Below are positions 4,044 through 25,587 of a DNA stretch of 45,446 nucleotides, piece after piece. Numbering within the stretch: the first letter of the stretch is position 1; every line of letters begins with the position of its first letter. The position numbers and the translations under genes are program-made. Origin of the DNA: Pseudomonadota bacterium (GTDB lineage Bacteria > Pseudomonadota > Gammaproteobacteria > Burkholderiales > Thiobacillaceae); NCBI GenBank assembly GCA_021826065.1, contig JAKADY010000024.1:1-45446 (forward strand). The letters run 5' to 3'. The notes below the pieces were generated by a model, which saw nothing but the letters and a program-made list of their open reading frames with translations, was not told the DNA's origin and did no database searches.

Positions 4044-4072
4044 TTGCAAGGGATGCACCGTTCACATAACAT
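4044..4072 (+). promoter_or_regulatory. Candidate sigma-70 promoter for the B12-uptake operon
   Basis: TTGCAA (4044-4049), 17 bp, TAACAT (4067-4072) gives a plausible start near 4079, right at the beginning of the cobalamin riboswitch. Confidence 0.45.
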
Positions 4073-4079
4073 CCCCCGT

Positions 4080-4262
4080 TGACGTGGTGCCCGCGGTTGC
4101 AAAGGCCGTGGGTTAAACGGGAAACAGGTGCAAGGCCTGTGCTGCCCCCGCAACGGTAAGCGCCTCTCGGCGGTCCACGCGAAGCCACTGGACGCATGTG
4201 TCCGGGAAGGCGGACCTTGAGCCTCATGCGCGAGCCCGGATACCGGCCCGTCATCCCAGGAC
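4080..4262 (+). ncRNA. Cobalamin (B12/AdoCbl-class) riboswitch
   Basis: The conserved core elements occur in order: TTAAACGGGAAACAGGTG (about 4112-4129), GCTGCCCCCGCAACGGTAAG (about 4140-4159), GCCACTG (about 4184-4190), GGGAAGGCGGA (about 4204-4214) and GAGCCCGGATACCGGCCCG (about 4232-4250). This is the standard B12-box arrangement. The RNA lies directly upstream of btuB and the candidate btuM, so B12 should lower expression of the uptake genes. The outer limits are approximate because the P1 helix was not folded computationally. Confidence 0.93.
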
Positions 4263-4263
4263 G

Positions 4264-4348
4264 CTGCGGGGTGCGGCGCGCCGGCGACCTCGGCCGTCCT
4301 CTCCCCGCAGCCATACCAACCGCTCATCACGCAAGCGGCGGGCTTGCG
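4264..4348 (+). promoter_or_regulatory. Leader hairpins between riboswitch and btuB, possible expression platform
   Basis: CTGCGGGG (4264-4271) can pair with CCCCGCAG (4303-4310). A second perfect stem CGCAAGC/GCTTGCG with a 5-nt loop (4330-4348) ends just before the btuB ribosome site AAAGGA. There is no T-tract, so translational control is more likely than termination. This is an inference. Confidence 0.4.
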
Positions 4349-4362
4349 GGAAAGGACGAAAG

Positions 4363-6210
4363 ATGCAAACCACTGCCATGGCCGCCCTGGGCGGCGGCCT
4401 CCTCGTTGTCGCCACCGGTCTGACGGCCGCCCCCCCGATCGACGCGACCGACACCTATCTTGATGAAATCGTGGTCACCGCCAGCCGGGTGCGCCAGCCG
4501 CTCACCCAGAGCCTCCGACACACGACGGTGATCACCGCGGCCGACATCCGGGCCAGCCAGGCGGCGGATCTGCCCACCCTACTGCGTCAGCAGGCCGGCA
4601 TCGAGGTCACGCAATCGGGCGGCGTGGGCACGCAGTCGAGCCTGTTTCTGCGCGGGGCCAACAGCAACCAGGCCCTGGTCCTGCTCGACGGCCAGCGCAT
4701 CGACTCGGCCACCACCGGCGCCGCCGCGCTGGACCAGATCACGCTCGCCGACATCGAGCGCATCGAGATCGTGCGCGGCAATGTGAGCGCGCTCTACGGC
4801 GCCTCGGCCATCGGCGGGGTGATCCAGATCTTCACCCGCAAGGGCACCGGTAGGCCGGCCGGCGAGCTGCGTGCCGGCCTGGGCAGCTATGGCACGCAAA
4901 GCCTGAGCGGCGACTACGGCGGCCAGTTCGGCGCCACCCGCTTTCACCTCAGTCTGGCGCACCGCGACACTGACGGTTTTTCCGCCGCCCGTAGCGAGTT
5001 CGTCCCCGCCCCCTTCGTCTTTGCGCCGGCGGACGCAGACCGCGACGGCTACCGCAACACCACTTTCACCTTCAACCTGGCGCATGACCTCGAGGCCGGC
5101 CACACCCTGTCTGCCCTCGCCCGGGCGAGCCGCGGCCGGGTCGAATACGACGGGACATTCAGCAACCGCTCCGAGCAGGACCTCGACGCCCTGCAACTGA
5201 CCAGCGAAAACCGTTTCGGCGAGCGCTGGACCAGCCGGTTGATGCTCGCAACCAGCCGCGACGCCCTGGACAGTTTTCTCGACAGCGCGCCGGCCAGCCG
5301 GGTACACACCCGCAACCGCCAGATCGACTGGTTCAACACCGTGACACTCGCCCCGGACCAAAGCCTCACCCTGGGGCTGGGCTGGCTGGGCCAGCGGGTG
5401 GCGAGCGACATGACCTACACGCGCACCCGGCGTGAGGCCAGACACGCCGCCGCCGGCTATGTCGGCGAATTCGGGCGCCATGGCGTGCAACTGAACCTGC
5501 GCACCGACGACTACAGCGACTTCGGCAGCCACAGCACCTGGCTGGCCGGCTATGGCCTGGAGGTCGCGCCCGGCTGGCGGCTGCTCGCCAGCGCCGGCAC
5601 GGCCTTTCGCGCACCCACCTTCAACGATCTCTACAACCCTGCCTGGGGCGGCAACCCCAACCTGCGCCCCGAGAAGGCGCGCAGTTGGGAGGCAGGACTG
5701 CAGTACGCCAGCGGCCCCTGGCTCGCCCGCCTGGTGCATTTCGACACCCGCACGCGCGACCTCATCGTCTATCAATGGCCGGCCGGCAACGTCAACCTCA
5801 AGCGGGCCGAGGTCGAGGGCTGGGAGCTCTCGGCCTCGGGCCGCCTGGCCGACATCCAGATCGGGCTGAGCCTCACCGCGCAGGATCCGCGCGATGCCGA
5901 CAGCGGGCAGCCGCTGCTGCGCCGGGCCAGGCGTCTTGGCAGCCTGACGCTCCGCCACGAGAACGGGCCCTGGCGCCTTGCCGCCGAGGTCAAGGCCTCG
6001 GGTGCGCGTGAGGACATCCACGCGACCACCTTCAGCCGCATCCGCCTGCCCGGCTACACGGTGTTCAACGTCAGCGGGCGTTACCGCCTGAGCCAATCCC
6101 TCGCCCTGGAGGCACGGGTCGACAACCTGTTCGACCGCGACTACAGCCTCGTGCACGGCTACAACACACCCGGTCGCAGCGGCCACCTCCAGCTCGAATG
6201 GCGTTTCTGA
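4363..6210 (+). CDS. btuB: TonB-dependent outer-membrane cobalamin receptor BtuB
   Basis: 615 residues from the ATG at 4363, which has AAAGGA upstream and gives a signal peptide ending near TAAPP. The frame is open further upstream but that part lies inside the riboswitch. A TonB-box-like DEIVVTASR follows at about 30-38. The plug domain runs to about residue 155 (LLRQQAGIEV, VLLDGQRIDS, IERIEIVRG, GASAIGGVIQI). The remainder is a 22-strand barrel type ending in the aromatic terminus LEWRF. The cobalamin riboswitch upstream and the candidate btuM downstream make B12 the likely ligand. Energy would come from a TonB-ExbB-ExbD complex; an exbBD pair lies at 24144-25174, though its link to this receptor is unproven. 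Confidence 0.92.
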   Translation: MQTTAMAALGGGLLVVATGLTAAPPIDATDTYLDEIVVTASRVRQPLTQSLRHTTVITAADIRASQAADLPTLLRQQAGIEVTQSGGVGTQSSLFLRGANSNQALVLLDGQRIDSATTGAAALDQITLADIERIEIVRGNVSALYGASAIGGVIQIFTRKGTGRPAGELRAGLGSYGTQSLSGDYGGQFGATRFHLSLAHRDTDGFSAARSEFVPAPFVFAPADADRDGYRNTTFTFNLAHDLEAGHTLSALARASRGRVEYDGTFSNRSEQDLDALQLTSENRFGERWTSRLMLATSRDALDSFLDSAPASRVHTRNRQIDWFNTVTLAPDQSLTLGLGWLGQRVASDMTYTRTRREARHAAAGYVGEFGRHGVQLNLRTDDYSDFGSHSTWLAGYGLEVAPGWRLLASAGTAFRAPTFNDLYNPAWGGNPNLRPEKARSWEAGLQYASGPWLARLVHFDTRTRDLIVYQWPAGNVNLKRAEVEGWELSASGRLADIQIGLSLTAQDPRDADSGQPLLRRARRLGSLTLRHENGPWRLAAEVKASGAREDIHATTFSRIRLPGYTVFNVSGRYRLSQSLALEARVDNLFDRDYSLVHGYNTPGRSGHLQLEWRF

Positions 6211-22219: not shown

Positions 22220-22233
22220 AGCGCTCAGTTAAA

Positions 22234-22468
22234 CCTAAAAACCGCAGTTGAACGCGCCCGAAAGCGGGCTTGTACGACCGGCTGGCAAGGCGCGACGACG
22301 CCGCAGGATGGCTCCCTGCAAGGAGGAGCAACGCAGCCAGACGGGCGTACAAGACCGAAGGCGGACGATTCGCGTGTTCACCCTCTGGGAGAGGATGACC
22401 GGAGGCAAAATCTCTTGCATCAGCGAGCTGTTACGAAGCCATAAGAGCGGTCAACTGCGGTTTTTAGG
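22234..22468. mobile_element. MITE-like element, copy 1 (235 bp), between fliJ and fliK
   Basis: The termini are perfect 18-bp inverted repeats (CCTAAAAACCGCAGTTGA and its complement). The element is flanked by the 5-bp direct repeat TTAAA (22229-22233 and 22469-22473). Internally, CTTGTACG pairs with CGTACAAG, and there is a small GCCCG-AAAG-CGGGC hairpin. Length is identical to copy 2, with about 10 substitutions, five of them clustered mid-element. A 74-codon frame inside is not convincing as a gene. The CCT ends and 5-bp AT-rich duplication resemble IS1380-family habits, so such a transposase may mobilise it; none is present here. Confidence 0.88.
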
Positions 22469-22522
22469 TTAAAAGCAAGGCCCATGCCAGCCCTTACGAT
22501 GGTGCCGGCCCAGCGCCGGCGA

Positions 22523-22978
22523 TCAGGCGTCCTCTTGCCGGGCCTGATCGAGGCGCACGCGTGCGGCGTGTTCGTCGGTCAGCCGCTGCTCCAGCCGTTC
22601 CGCCCGCAGCGACTCGCGTTTGTGATGGCGCTGCGCCAGGGTCTCATAGGCCAGGACCTTCTGCCGCTCGGCAAGCCACTGCCGGTGCGCGCTCTCCCAG
22701 CGCGCGCGCGCCTCCTCGACCACGGCGGCCTGATGGCGGATGGCGTGCTCGATCTTGGCGAGGAAGACGTGGTAGTCGCGCATGAGCTGGATGTGCATCC
22801 CCCCGGCCGAGCTGTTGGCGAGCCGGGCGTGGTATTCCTGGCGGAAGCCCTCCAGTTCGGCCAGCCTTTGTCGCGCCTCGTCCTCCTTCTGCTTGAGCAG
22901 CCTGAGCGTGCGCTCGGCGGCATCCATGCGATGCCGGGTGTGCTCCAGCAGCGGTTGCAGCGGGAAACGCTTGGCCAT
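22523..22978 (-). CDS. fliJ: Flagellar export chaperone FliJ
   Basis: 151 residues, almost entirely charged alpha-helix predicted to form a coiled coil, starting MAKRFPLQPLLEHTRHRMDAAERTL as FliJ proteins do. FliJ joins the FliI ATPase ring to the export gate. No fliH or fliI lies upstream. The next gene upstream is the ycaR-like gene, 9 bp away. Downstream a MITE separates it from fliK. Confidence 0.88.
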   Translation of the reverse strand: MAKRFPLQPLLEHTRHRMDAAERTLRLLKQKEDEARQRLAELEGFRQEYHARLANSSAGGMHIQLMRDYHVFLAKIEHAIRHQAAVVEEARARWESAHRQWLAERQKVLAYETLAQRHHKRESLRAERLEQRLTDEHAARVRLDQARQEDA

Positions 22979-22987
22979 GCCGACGGC

Positions 22988-23167
22988 TCAGACCTCCTCT
23001 TCCGCCGGCAGGCGACGCGCCTCCTCCTCCAGCATGACCGGGATGCCGTCGCGGATCGGATAGGCCAGGCGGTCGGCCTTGCAGATGAGTTCCTGGGCCT
23101 CCTTCTTGTAGGTGAGCGGCCCCTTGCAGAGGGGGCAGACCAGGATCTCAAGTAGTTTGGCGTCCAT
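22988..23167 (-). CDS. ycaR: Trm112/YcaR-family small protein
   Basis: 59 residues from the ATG at 23167: [18 protein letters not shown], then [21 protein letters not shown]. This is the UPF0434/YcaR signature with one CxxC pair. The start lies inside the end of lpxK (20-bp overlap), the same association as lpxK-ycaR in other Proteobacteria. The exact role is not established. Confidence 0.93.
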
Positions 23168-24128
23168 GGCGTGGGGGCGGGAGTCGGTTGAGGATGCGCG
23201 TTTGTAGCGCCGGATCGACGACGGCGTCAACCTCCAGCACCCAGTCGTCGGCGCGGGCGAAGGCGGCGCATTTGACGGCGTCCTTCTCGGTCATGACCAC
23301 CGGGCCGGCCGGCAGATCCTGCGGCCGGAAGCCGTGGTGGTCGGGGAAGGGGTGTGGCGTGACCACGGCGCCAAGCTCGCGCAGCAGCTCAAAAAAACGC
23401 TCGGGGTGGCCGATGCCGGCCACGGCGTCGAGCCGCCGCCCGCGCAACCAGTCCAGGCCGCGAACGTCTTCTGGGTCGCACAGCCGTCGCAGCCGCACCG
23501 GCGTAAGCCGCATCGGATAGACCGGACTGGCCACCCGCAGCCAGTCCGTCGTGCCCCCGTTGACCACCACCGCGTCGACCGTGTCGAGCCGGCGGGGTGA
23601 CTCGCGCAGCGGGCCGGCGGGCAGCAGCCGGCCGTTGCCGAAGCGGCGCACACCGTCCACCACGGCGATCTCCAGGTCGCGCCCCAGGGCATAGTGCTGC
23701 AGCCCGTCGTCGGTGACGATCACGTCGGTGTCGGGGTGCGCTCGGAGCAGGGCACGCGCCGCCGCCGGCCGCCGCCGGCCGATGTAGACCGGGACCTGCG
23801 CGCGCCGGGCCAGCATCAGCGGCTCGTCCCCCACCTCGGCGGGGTCGCTCGCAGGGGTGACGACGAGCGGCCCACGCTGGCGGCCGCCATAACCGCGGCT
23901 GACGATGCCCGGCCGATAGCCGGTAGCCTGCAACATCTCGACCAGCCAGAGGGTGAGCGGCGTCTTGCCGGTGCCGCCGACGCTGATGTTGCCCACCACG
24001 ATCACCGGCACGGGCAGCCGTGTCACCTGCAGCAGCCCACGGCGATAGGCCAATCGGCGCAGACCGGAGACCAGGAAGAACAACCCCGACAGCGGCAACA
24101 GCAGCCATGGGGCGCCGCCCTCACCCAT
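23148..24128 (-). CDS. lpxK: Tetraacyldisaccharide 4'-kinase LpxK
   Basis: 326 residues. It phosphorylates the lipid A precursor at the 4' position at the inner membrane. An N-terminal membrane-associated helix ([19 protein letters not shown]) precedes the Walker A motif VGGTGKTP (about 50-57), followed by [24 protein letters not shown] (about 140-145) and FPDHHGF. It lies 15 bp after exbD and overlaps ycaR, the usual exbBD-lpxK-ycaR cluster. Confidence 0.96.
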
Positions 24129-24143
24129 GGGGTGTGCGTGTCG

Positions 24144-24572
24144 TCACTGCGCCGCTTCGGGCGACGTCTGGGTCACGAAGGTCACCCGCGTGAAACCGGC
24201 CCGCCGGGCGGCGTCCATGACGTGGATGACGGCCTGGTGGGTGGCGCGCGCGTCGGCGGAGATGACCACCACCGGGTCCTTCTGCCCACCGGCGATGCGC
24301 ACCAGGGTCTCGCGCAGGTCCTCGACCCCGCGGAAGGCCACGGCGGTCTCGTTGATGCGATAGTTGCCGGCGGCATCGACGTTCACGTTGATCTGCGCCG
24401 GCACCTCCTTGGCGGTCTCGCCCTGGGCCTCGGGCAGGTTGATCTGCAACTCGGCGAAACGGGCATAGGTGGTGGTGATCACCAGGAAGATGATGATCAC
24501 CAGCAGCAGGTCGATGAGCGGGATCAGGTTGATCTCCGGCTCGTCGCGCCGCCAACCGCGCTGGAAGTTCAT
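24144..24572 (-). CDS. exbD: ExbD/TolR-family proton-channel protein
   Basis: 142 residues. A short cytoplasmic N-terminus is followed by one membrane helix with the conserved Asp (INLIPLIDLLLVIIIFLVITTTY, Asp near 24) and a periplasmic domain ending in a Gly/Ala-rich VTFVTQT segment. It works with ExbB to couple the proton gradient to TonB-type receptors or envelope functions. It overlaps exbB by ATGA. Confidence 0.94.
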   Translation of the reverse strand: MNFQRGWRRDEPEINLIPLIDLLLVIIIFLVITTTYARFAELQINLPEAQGETAKEVPAQINVNVDAAGNYRINETAVAFRGVEDLRETLVRIAGGQKDPVVVISADARATHQAVIHVMDAARRAGFTRVTFVTQTSPEAAQ

Positions 24573-25174
24573 TTGCGCTCGCCGTGCACGATGTCCACCA
24601 GGTGCAGGGCCTGCTGCTCCATCTCCACCAGCAGCGTGTCGACCCTGGCGCGGAAATAGCGGTAGAAGATCATGCTGGGGATGGCGACGATGAGGCCGAA
24701 GGCAGTGTTGTACAGGGCGATGGAGATGCCGTGCGCGAGCTTGGCGGGGTTGCCGCCGCCGGGGCTCTGGGCGCCGAAGATCTCAATCATGCCGATGACC
24801 GTGCCCAGCAGCCCCAGCAGCGGGGCCACGGTGGCGATGGTGCCCAGGGCCGTGAGGTAGCGTTCCAGTTCATGCGCCACCGAGCGGCCAACCTCCTCCA
24901 GGGTCTCCTTCATCAGCTCACGGCTGCCGTTCATGCTGCGCAGCCCCGCGGCGAATACCCGCCCCATCGGCGAGCCCTCGGCCAGAGCGCGCAGGAGGTC
25001 GTTGTTGAGCCCGTGCCGGCGCAGGTTCTCCAGGGTCTGCTCGAGCAGGTTGGGCGGGTTGACCAGGCGGGCACGCAGGCTGTAGCTGCGCTCGATGATG
25101 ATGGCCAGGGCGATGACCGAGGCGATGATCAGGGGCCAGATCGGCCAGCCGGCGGCTTCGATGAGGGCGAGCAC
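24569..25174 (-). CDS. exbB: ExbB/MotA/TolQ-family proton-channel protein
   Basis: 201 residues starting at a GTG. Three membrane segments are visible: WPIWPLIIASVIALAIIIERS (about 9-29), IATVAPLLGLLGTVIGMIEIF (about 113-133) and GLIVAIPSMIFYRYF (about 161-175). The motif LLGTVIGM is typical of ExbB. It starts a long minus-strand run through lpxK and flagellar genes. Its leader carries MITE copy 2, whose near end is 78 bp upstream of the start codon. Confidence 0.94.
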   Translation of the reverse strand: MLALIEAAGWPIWPLIIASVIALAIIIERSYSLRARLVNPPNLLEQTLENLRRHGLNNDLLRALAEGSPMGRVFAAGLRSMNGSRELMKETLEEVGRSVAHELERYLTALGTIATVAPLLGLLGTVIGMIEIFGAQSPGGGNPAKLAHGISIALYNTAFGLIVAIPSMIFYRYFRARVDTLLVEMEQQALHLVDIVHGERK

Positions 25175-25252
25175 TCCCGTGTCCTCGTCAAGGTTTTGTC
25201 GATGGCCCGCAAATGTAGCCCGGCAGGCAGCCTGGGGGCAAGCCGCTATAAT

Positions 25253-25487
25253 CCTAAAAACCGCAGTTGAACGCGCCCGAAAGCGGGCTTGTACGACCGG
25301 CTGGCAAGGCGCGACGACGCCGCAGGATGGCTCCCTGCAAAGAGGAGCAACGCAGCCAGACGGGCGTACAAGACCGAAGGCGGGCGCGGAGCGTGTTCAC
25401 CCTCTGGGAGCGGATGACCGGAGGCAAAATCTCTTGCATCATCGAGCTGTTGCGAAGCCATAGGAGCGGTCAACTGCGGTTTTTAGG
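25253..25487. mobile_element. MITE-like element, copy 2 (235 bp), between exbB and pcnB
   Basis: It has the same 18-bp perfect terminal inverted repeats and 235-bp length as copy 1, with about 96% identity by eye. It is flanked by its own 5-bp duplication ATAAT (25248-25252 and 25488-25492). The left flank reads TATAAT, so the insertion hit an AT-rich, -10-like hexamer in the divergent region. It carries no transposase. Confidence 0.88.
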
Positions 25488-25587
25488 ATAATACGCGCGT
25501 CGATGTCGAAAACTGCCCCTGCGGGGATCACCCCGTCCGCCACCTGATGGCCTCGCGCCGCCCTGCGACCACCCGCCCGTCCGCCAA

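Follow-up and report, generated by a model that had tools for sequence, protein, structure and literature searches.

A family of miniature inverted-repeat elements with IS1380-like ends and a conserved internal hairpin in a Thiobacillaceae genome

Two element copies and their family in the host genome

The stretch of DNA analysed here (the window) comprises the whole 45,446 nt of contig JAKADY010000024.1, from a bacterium of the Thiobacillaceae whose assembly (GCA_021826065.1, genome G000 below) consists of 74 contigs. It carries two copies of a miniature inverted-repeat transposable element (MITE), delimited by end pairing and gene context. Copy 1 (22234..22468, + strand) separates fliJ from fliK, two minus-strand genes; 14 bases lie between its left end and the start codon of fliK in the frame listed. 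Copy 2 (25253..25487, + strand) lies between a MotA/TolQ/ExbB gene on the minus strand and pcnB on the plus strand. Both copies are exactly 235 bp long and encode nothing, this length being too short for a transposase gene; 10 positions distinguish them (95.7% identity). Each is bounded by 18-bp terminal inverted repeats (CCTAAAAACCGCAGTTGA), found at 22234..22251 (+) and 22451..22468 (-) in copy 1 and at 25253..25270 (+) and 25470..25487 (-) in copy 2. These four sites are the only exact matches to the 18-mer in the window, where no further match was detected at up to three mismatches; 100 shuffles gave none. Identical 5-bp target duplications flank the copies: TTAAA at 22229..22233 and 22469..22473 around copy 1, and ATAAT at 25248..25252 (within a TATAAT sequence) and 25488..25492 around copy 2. 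The length, the identity of about 96%, the identical termini and the two different AT-rich duplications had already been described in an initial annotation made from the window alone, and all of them were confirmed.

The same annotation regarded the copies as two independent insertions, and this was borne out as well. Over 60 bp outside the duplications, the flanks of the two copies are only 23% and 28% identical to each other. The site of copy 2 is uninterrupted, with a single ATAAT, in two genomes of the same genus with fragmented assemblies, G003 (L348) and G002 (L349; L-numbers denote loci taken from related or named genomes, C-numbers contigs). These represent two of four aligned loci, the other two (L350, L351) having no clean alignment over the site, while L352 and L353 were left out of this alignment. 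A segmental duplication, which the 3-kb spacing and high identity of the copies might suggest, is thus ruled out for practical purposes by the empty second site and the unrelated flanks, together with the differing duplications and the 39 paired copies found in the genome (see below); these copies and unrelated flanks equally speak against the possibility, raised in the initial annotation, of only two copies derived from one ancestral duplication.

The genome-wide search for the terminus, which had been proposed as a check, yielded 93 sites in G000 at up to two mismatches, as opposed to none in the reversed control. When the sites were paired under looser mismatch limits, 39 elements were obtained, 32 of a long form (233-237 bp) and seven of a short form (135-139 bp). 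Identical 5-bp flanks were present in 30 of the 39 (eight different sequences), four of five flank bases matched in five further pairs and 0 to 3 bases in the remaining four. All but one of the 30 identical flanks are palindromic ATNAT or TTNAA sequences, a target type to which 0.26% of the positions in the window conform. Unpaired end sites mostly coincided with the ends of contigs, which is what one expects of repeats when an assembly is broken into 74 pieces. Among the 32 long copies, the median pairwise identity was 93.6% and the median identity to the nearest neighbour 97%, so that the recent mobility suggested earlier from the two window copies is supported only moderately. One divergent copy (L077, C14:17524-17871) is split by a different short element with inverted repeats (GGGAAACACTGATTTAA...TTAATCAGCGTTTCCC).

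We further searched 101 related genomes, G000 included. At up to one mismatch, the ends were present in 36 of them, with two matches in the reversed controls listed. In G000, G002, G003 and G080, the last belonging to another family within the order, between 29 and 93 sites with the end sequence were counted; in G080, identical 5-bp flanks were observed in 21 of 22 examined elements. A scan of the contigs of named genomes detected at least 112 stretches with the ends, the genera represented including Thiobacillus, Nitrosomonas, Methylobacter and Thiodiazotropha; 80 of these stretches were examined for paired ends and 100 for the hairpin described below. The MITE DNA had no match in plasmid and phage collections, and neither end nor core patterns occurred in viral contigs. 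At positions 533-653 of locus L127 (G080), a second MITE-like repeat was observed, with ends CCCAGATTGTCCATTAG and a TTGAA flank on both sides; it adjoins or sits within the main MITE family, and a similar sequence is present inside L133.

Autonomous relatives and the candidate transposase

Members of the IS1380 family have ends beginning with CC and generate duplications of 4-5 bp. From the CCT ends and 5-bp duplications, the initial annotation had named a transposase of this kind as a candidate driver, and similar-ended full elements now support the link to IS1380-like transposases. Among the 80 loci scanned for paired ends, L193 represents a complete insertion sequence of 1634 bp: its left end is exact, its right end similar, and ATGAT stands on either side. 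Its transposase (513 amino acids) scores above the cut-offs of both Pfam models, PF01609 and PF13701, as does that of L287, the other protein scanned. For the L193 protein, NCBIfam gives IS1380 as the best match, with 130.6 bits where the cut-off is 180. This model (NF033539) was the best one for all five transposases tested. Six full-length relatives share the end type (L193, L281, L283, L284, the degraded L274 and L287 from Polaromonas), and another transposase relative, L282, starts at a contig edge. The ends begin with CCTA in all six, and the duplications are identical in three, i.e. in L193 and L281 (both ATGAT) and in L287 (TTAAA). On a plasmid of Polaromonas sp. P1-6, the complete 1630-bp element with TTAAA on both sides (transposase UUZ66186.1) is accompanied, about 350 bp away, by a MITE whose left end is the same as the right end of the element over 16 bases. 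Candidate catalytic residues D164, D245 and E374/E379 (L193 numbering) were invariant in seven aligned proteins, two of which pass the IS1380 model. A subterminal palindrome (TCACC..GGTGA) lies 77-88 bp from the left end in five of the six autonomous relatives. Of 74 long MITEs tested, 36 have it in exact form; in both window copies it is degenerate (22378..22392, +, in copy 1, by motif comparison with the autonomous relatives); the palindrome is itself symmetric and therefore gives no call on the orientation of any insertion-sequence end that was kept.

The relatives thus resemble the IS1380 family in having a single DDE transposase gene, a length of approximately 1.5-1.7 kb, 5-bp duplications and ends starting with CC. 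IS1247 of Paracoccus, a member of this family, is listed with 1672 bp, inverted repeats of 16/13 and a direct repeat of 5 (PMC3281130). The relatives differ from the family in their divergence, the L193 protein being 18% and 20% identical to the two compared proteins that pass the IS1380 model.

Taken together, both window elements are very probably MITEs of the long, hairpin-containing form, moved by an IS1380-like DDE transposase acting in trans, whose own element has probably been lost, left unassembled or met by horizontal transfer. Use of an IS1380-like transposase by the MITE is well supported. As for the trans step, the transposase would bind the 18-bp ends and insert the element at palindromic ATNAT or TTNAA sites, leaving the 5-bp duplication, and the copies in G000 would probably have been spread by such an absent or transiently acquired element. 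The palindromic target rule, together with the autonomous relatives, makes a direct test of transposition possible.

Several observations weigh against this reading. All five transposases scored 121.6-155.5 bits, below the NCBIfam cut-off of 180 for IS1380, and for this reason we use the label IS1380-like. Duplications matched at four of five bases in L274 and L284 and not at all in L283. Identical flanks were found in none of six examined long pairs in G003 and in two of four in G002, which we attribute to recombination between copies or to misassembly in these fragmented genomes. Finally, a protein search of the 101 genomes gave matching transposases in five; G000, G002 and G003 had none, and G080 does not belong to the five either, although all four carry the ends. 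When 369 genomes of the class were searched at E <= 1e-30, five contained transposases like that of L193; with E <= 1e-3, five of the 101 related genomes did, and two of these matches are strong.

The transposase that the initial annotation expected elsewhere in the genome therefore did not turn up, and a full insertion sequence with ends of the same kind, which it also anticipated, exists in other genomes (L193 and others) and was not found in G000. Other leads were rejected. The single PF13701 transposase of G000 (C8:19499-20797) belongs to an IS1380-type element with different ends (CCTGAATCCGTGG). The presence of PF13701 as such was no useful marker of the driver, as only three of 12 copy-bearing genomes match, G000 being among them through this differently ended element. 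Two hits in G080 (C1:41369 and C1:1337030) belong to an element of the IS4 type, present twice, whose ends are different. Separately, locus L171 contains a possible 3.6-kb end pair with a 585-amino-acid frame.

Could another transposase family, such as IS1634 or IS4, drive the element, the IS1380-like link being incidental? The scores below cut-off, weak matches of some of the transposases to IS1634, IS701 or IS4 models and the failure to find a driver in G000 would fit. Nevertheless, six full-length relatives have the same end style, five of them with flanks matching at four or five of five bases; IS1380 was the best model in every transposase tested; and on the Polaromonas plasmid a full element adjoins a MITE with a matching end. 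We therefore consider this explanation very improbable.

The hairpin module

The long copies contain a hairpin of approximately 128 nt which the short copies and the autonomous elements lack. In copy 1 the module occupies 22250..22377 (+; 111.5 bits with covariance model R1) and in copy 2 25269..25396 (+; 111.4 bits), the former being among the 22 sequences from which the model was built and the latter outside them. These 22 modules, from about 15 genomes (four from G000 and four from G080), form alignment A1, for which 32 sources were reduced to 27 sequences fitting a search expression and then to the 22 used; L127, L136 and L130 of G080, the short variant L298 and L289, which has unrelated ends, were omitted. 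RNAalifold folded the alignment into a single long hairpin of 39 pairs, 27 of them with changes on both sides. Paired cells amounted to 95.0% (77.6% in shuffles), and the covariation score was 0.499 (0.172 in shuffles, none of 500 being as high), a statistic that ignores the relatedness of the sequences. Sliding the partners lowered the score to 0.129 or less, a control that favours the structure since this was derived from the same sequences.

The inner core of the hairpin, located at 22284..22338 (+) in copy 1 by alignment, consensus structure and core scoring, is purine-rich and nearly invariant, with C-G pairs alternating with G.A/A.G purine loops; L195 and L118 have A-T pairs in place of one purine-loop step. 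Among 43 modules, two opposite-strand rows having been removed from the count, G-U occurred in 192 cells and A-C in 14, these cells not being phylogenetically independent; at pairs with a Watson-Crick majority, the numbers were 77 and 13. The consensus energy was -74.5 kcal/mol on the module strand and -36.1 on the opposite strand. The hairpin is constrained on one strand. The conserved core hairpin is also new with respect to the initial annotation, which named only the ends and duplications.

At E <= 0.001, the covariance model matched 63 of the 101 genomes and 24 of 52 genera, a count that includes the genomes from which the model was built and in which weak matches may represent other long hairpins (for example L366, without a clear core). 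Of 30 module loci, one per genome, 23 lie in a 233-236-bp element with ends of the IS1380-like type, two of them of a CCTTGATTCC variant; the flanks of these elements are identical in 14 cases, match at four of five bases in eight and at three of five in one. Two further loci show inner portions of variant ends; for the last five, no ends were assigned. Rfam gave no match to copy 1 at E values up to 1, its only match at the gathering score in the window being a cobalamin riboswitch elsewhere, and in 14 related loci it gave four matches up to E 0.1, none on the core. Longer MITEs were encountered in L250, L197, L229 and L293, those of L197 and L229 measuring about 290 bp. They come from different genomes and have an extra nested hairpin containing GCGGAGTCGTTG, which lies at a corresponding position of the core in each. 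In G003, MITEs of 356-549 bp (L142-L147) were also seen, having palindromic units inserted in the core and non-matching flanks.

The same core in elements with other ends and its possible role

A deeper covariance-model search was made in ten already matching genomes, from which 30 loci were fetched, and the two core strands were scored without regard to pairing, which separates the sequence from the hairpin shape. Sixteen of the 30 loci exceeded the best score of the reversed loci (12.8). Since the loci had been picked genome-wide by a model that itself contains the core, a simulated control of 72 million positions, corresponding roughly to both strands of the ten genomes, was added; its top score was 24.4. 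Eight loci surpassed this value. One (L359) has IS1380-like ends, and the other seven, from five genomes, occur in other contexts: L369 (48.6), L378 (42.3) and L387 (41.0) in G067, L376 in G098 (39.6), L363 in G085 (36.8), L364 in G023 (30.1) and L385 in G086 (26.6). The ends were AGGGCCTGTT... or GGGGCCTGTT... in G067, AGTGGTCTGCTT... in G023 and AGGGCCTGTTTACACT in G086; L363 and L376 each consist of a lone hairpin of about 100 bp. Four more loci in other contexts scored 14.2-23.2. The remaining 14 of the 30 did not exceed the reversed control; some have recognisable core strings and ends, for example GGGAAACGCTGAACAAG and AGAGCCTGTTCAATAT, and would count as members by the covariance model rather than by the core test. 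A further MITE-like sequence, L365 (G095), has ends AGAGCCTATTTCAGTA and, by eye, two inverted copies of the core.

In kind, the element is an ordinary MITE with a shared core that is probably functional. Like the MITEs derived from insertion sequences that are covered in a review of bacterial MITEs (PMC10969869), it is short and non-coding, with inverted repeats, duplications, many copies and a stable predicted fold of its transcript. It differs from the MITEs of that review, which describes them as typically AT-rich, in being GC-rich, in having two length classes, and in a core that is conserved across genera and common to elements with other ends. MITEs are usually seen as empty passengers defined by their ends alone; here, the part conserved across genera is an internal fold. 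The Correia elements of Neisseria, ERIC and the pneumococcal BOX, RUP and SPRITE sequences are small repeats as well, with possible effects on RNA, and as generally known they differ from the window family in ends and hosts. Among the pneumococcal repeats, BOX and RUP are treated in PMC3049150 and SPRITE and BOX in PMC10969869. A literature search, mostly of papers outside subscription, returned none that prints the MITE ends or core strings (two matches to an 11-mer of the core, concerning a Rhodococcus isolate and ovarian fibroblasts, were unrelated), and a topic search by title and beginning of abstract found no description of this MITE family.

Both the constraint on one strand and the reuse of the core in elements with different ends argue for a function of the hairpin. 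The element does not need it in order to move, because the short form, which lacks it, retains identical 5-bp flanks in five of seven copies. We tentatively suggest that the hairpin might act as RNA upon transcription, either by binding a common host factor or by giving the transcript a form in which insertions are tolerated. More broadly, and again as a possibility we would not yet favour over its denial, the central hairpin with its tandem purine (G.A) loops could be a hitherto undescribed functional motif, probably of RNA, that many bacterial MITE families with unrelated ends share or have converged on owing to its recognition by a conserved host factor, for which it would serve as a common passport of small mobile elements. 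The unrelated ends would imply that the transposases of these families are probably unrelated, too. Should the fold be functional, the success of small elements may be decided by a single host factor, and the fold could serve to find such elements across many genomes.

Two other explanations of the hairpin have to be considered, both of them rather unlikely in our view. According to the first, the paired changes would stem from quasi-palindrome correction or gene conversion during replication, with no function involved. Template switching can homogenise long inverted repeats, and the stems indeed vary freely yet stay complementary. Such a process would be expected to perfect a mismatched core, but the core is imperfect and nearly invariant; nor would it be expected to produce the strong excess of G-U over A-C cells, and the core recurs, by sequence alone, at loci with other ends. 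According to the second, the hairpin would act as single-stranded DNA in replication, as a cruciform or as a transposition intermediate. The constraint on one strand fits this as well, G-T is also better tolerated than A-C in single-stranded DNA, and no internal promoter- or terminator-like site was found in the element. As for orientation to genes, a crude gene finder applied to 27 of 29 loci (two truncated ones omitted) placed the module antisense to both flanking genes in 11 cases and in sense to both in six. There is no clear sense bias, and a role in mRNA gets no support from it; for this reason RNA is favoured over single-stranded DNA only slightly. Opposed to the single-stranded DNA explanation are the hairpin-less short form with its preserved flanks and the presence of both MITE orientations along the chromosome of G080, in which the replication origin was not located.

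Apart from the MITE copies, the cobalamin riboswitch of the window is situated at 4067-4265 (+, 112.8 bits in Rfam) and overlaps the start of a TonB-dependent receptor frame (4198-6210).

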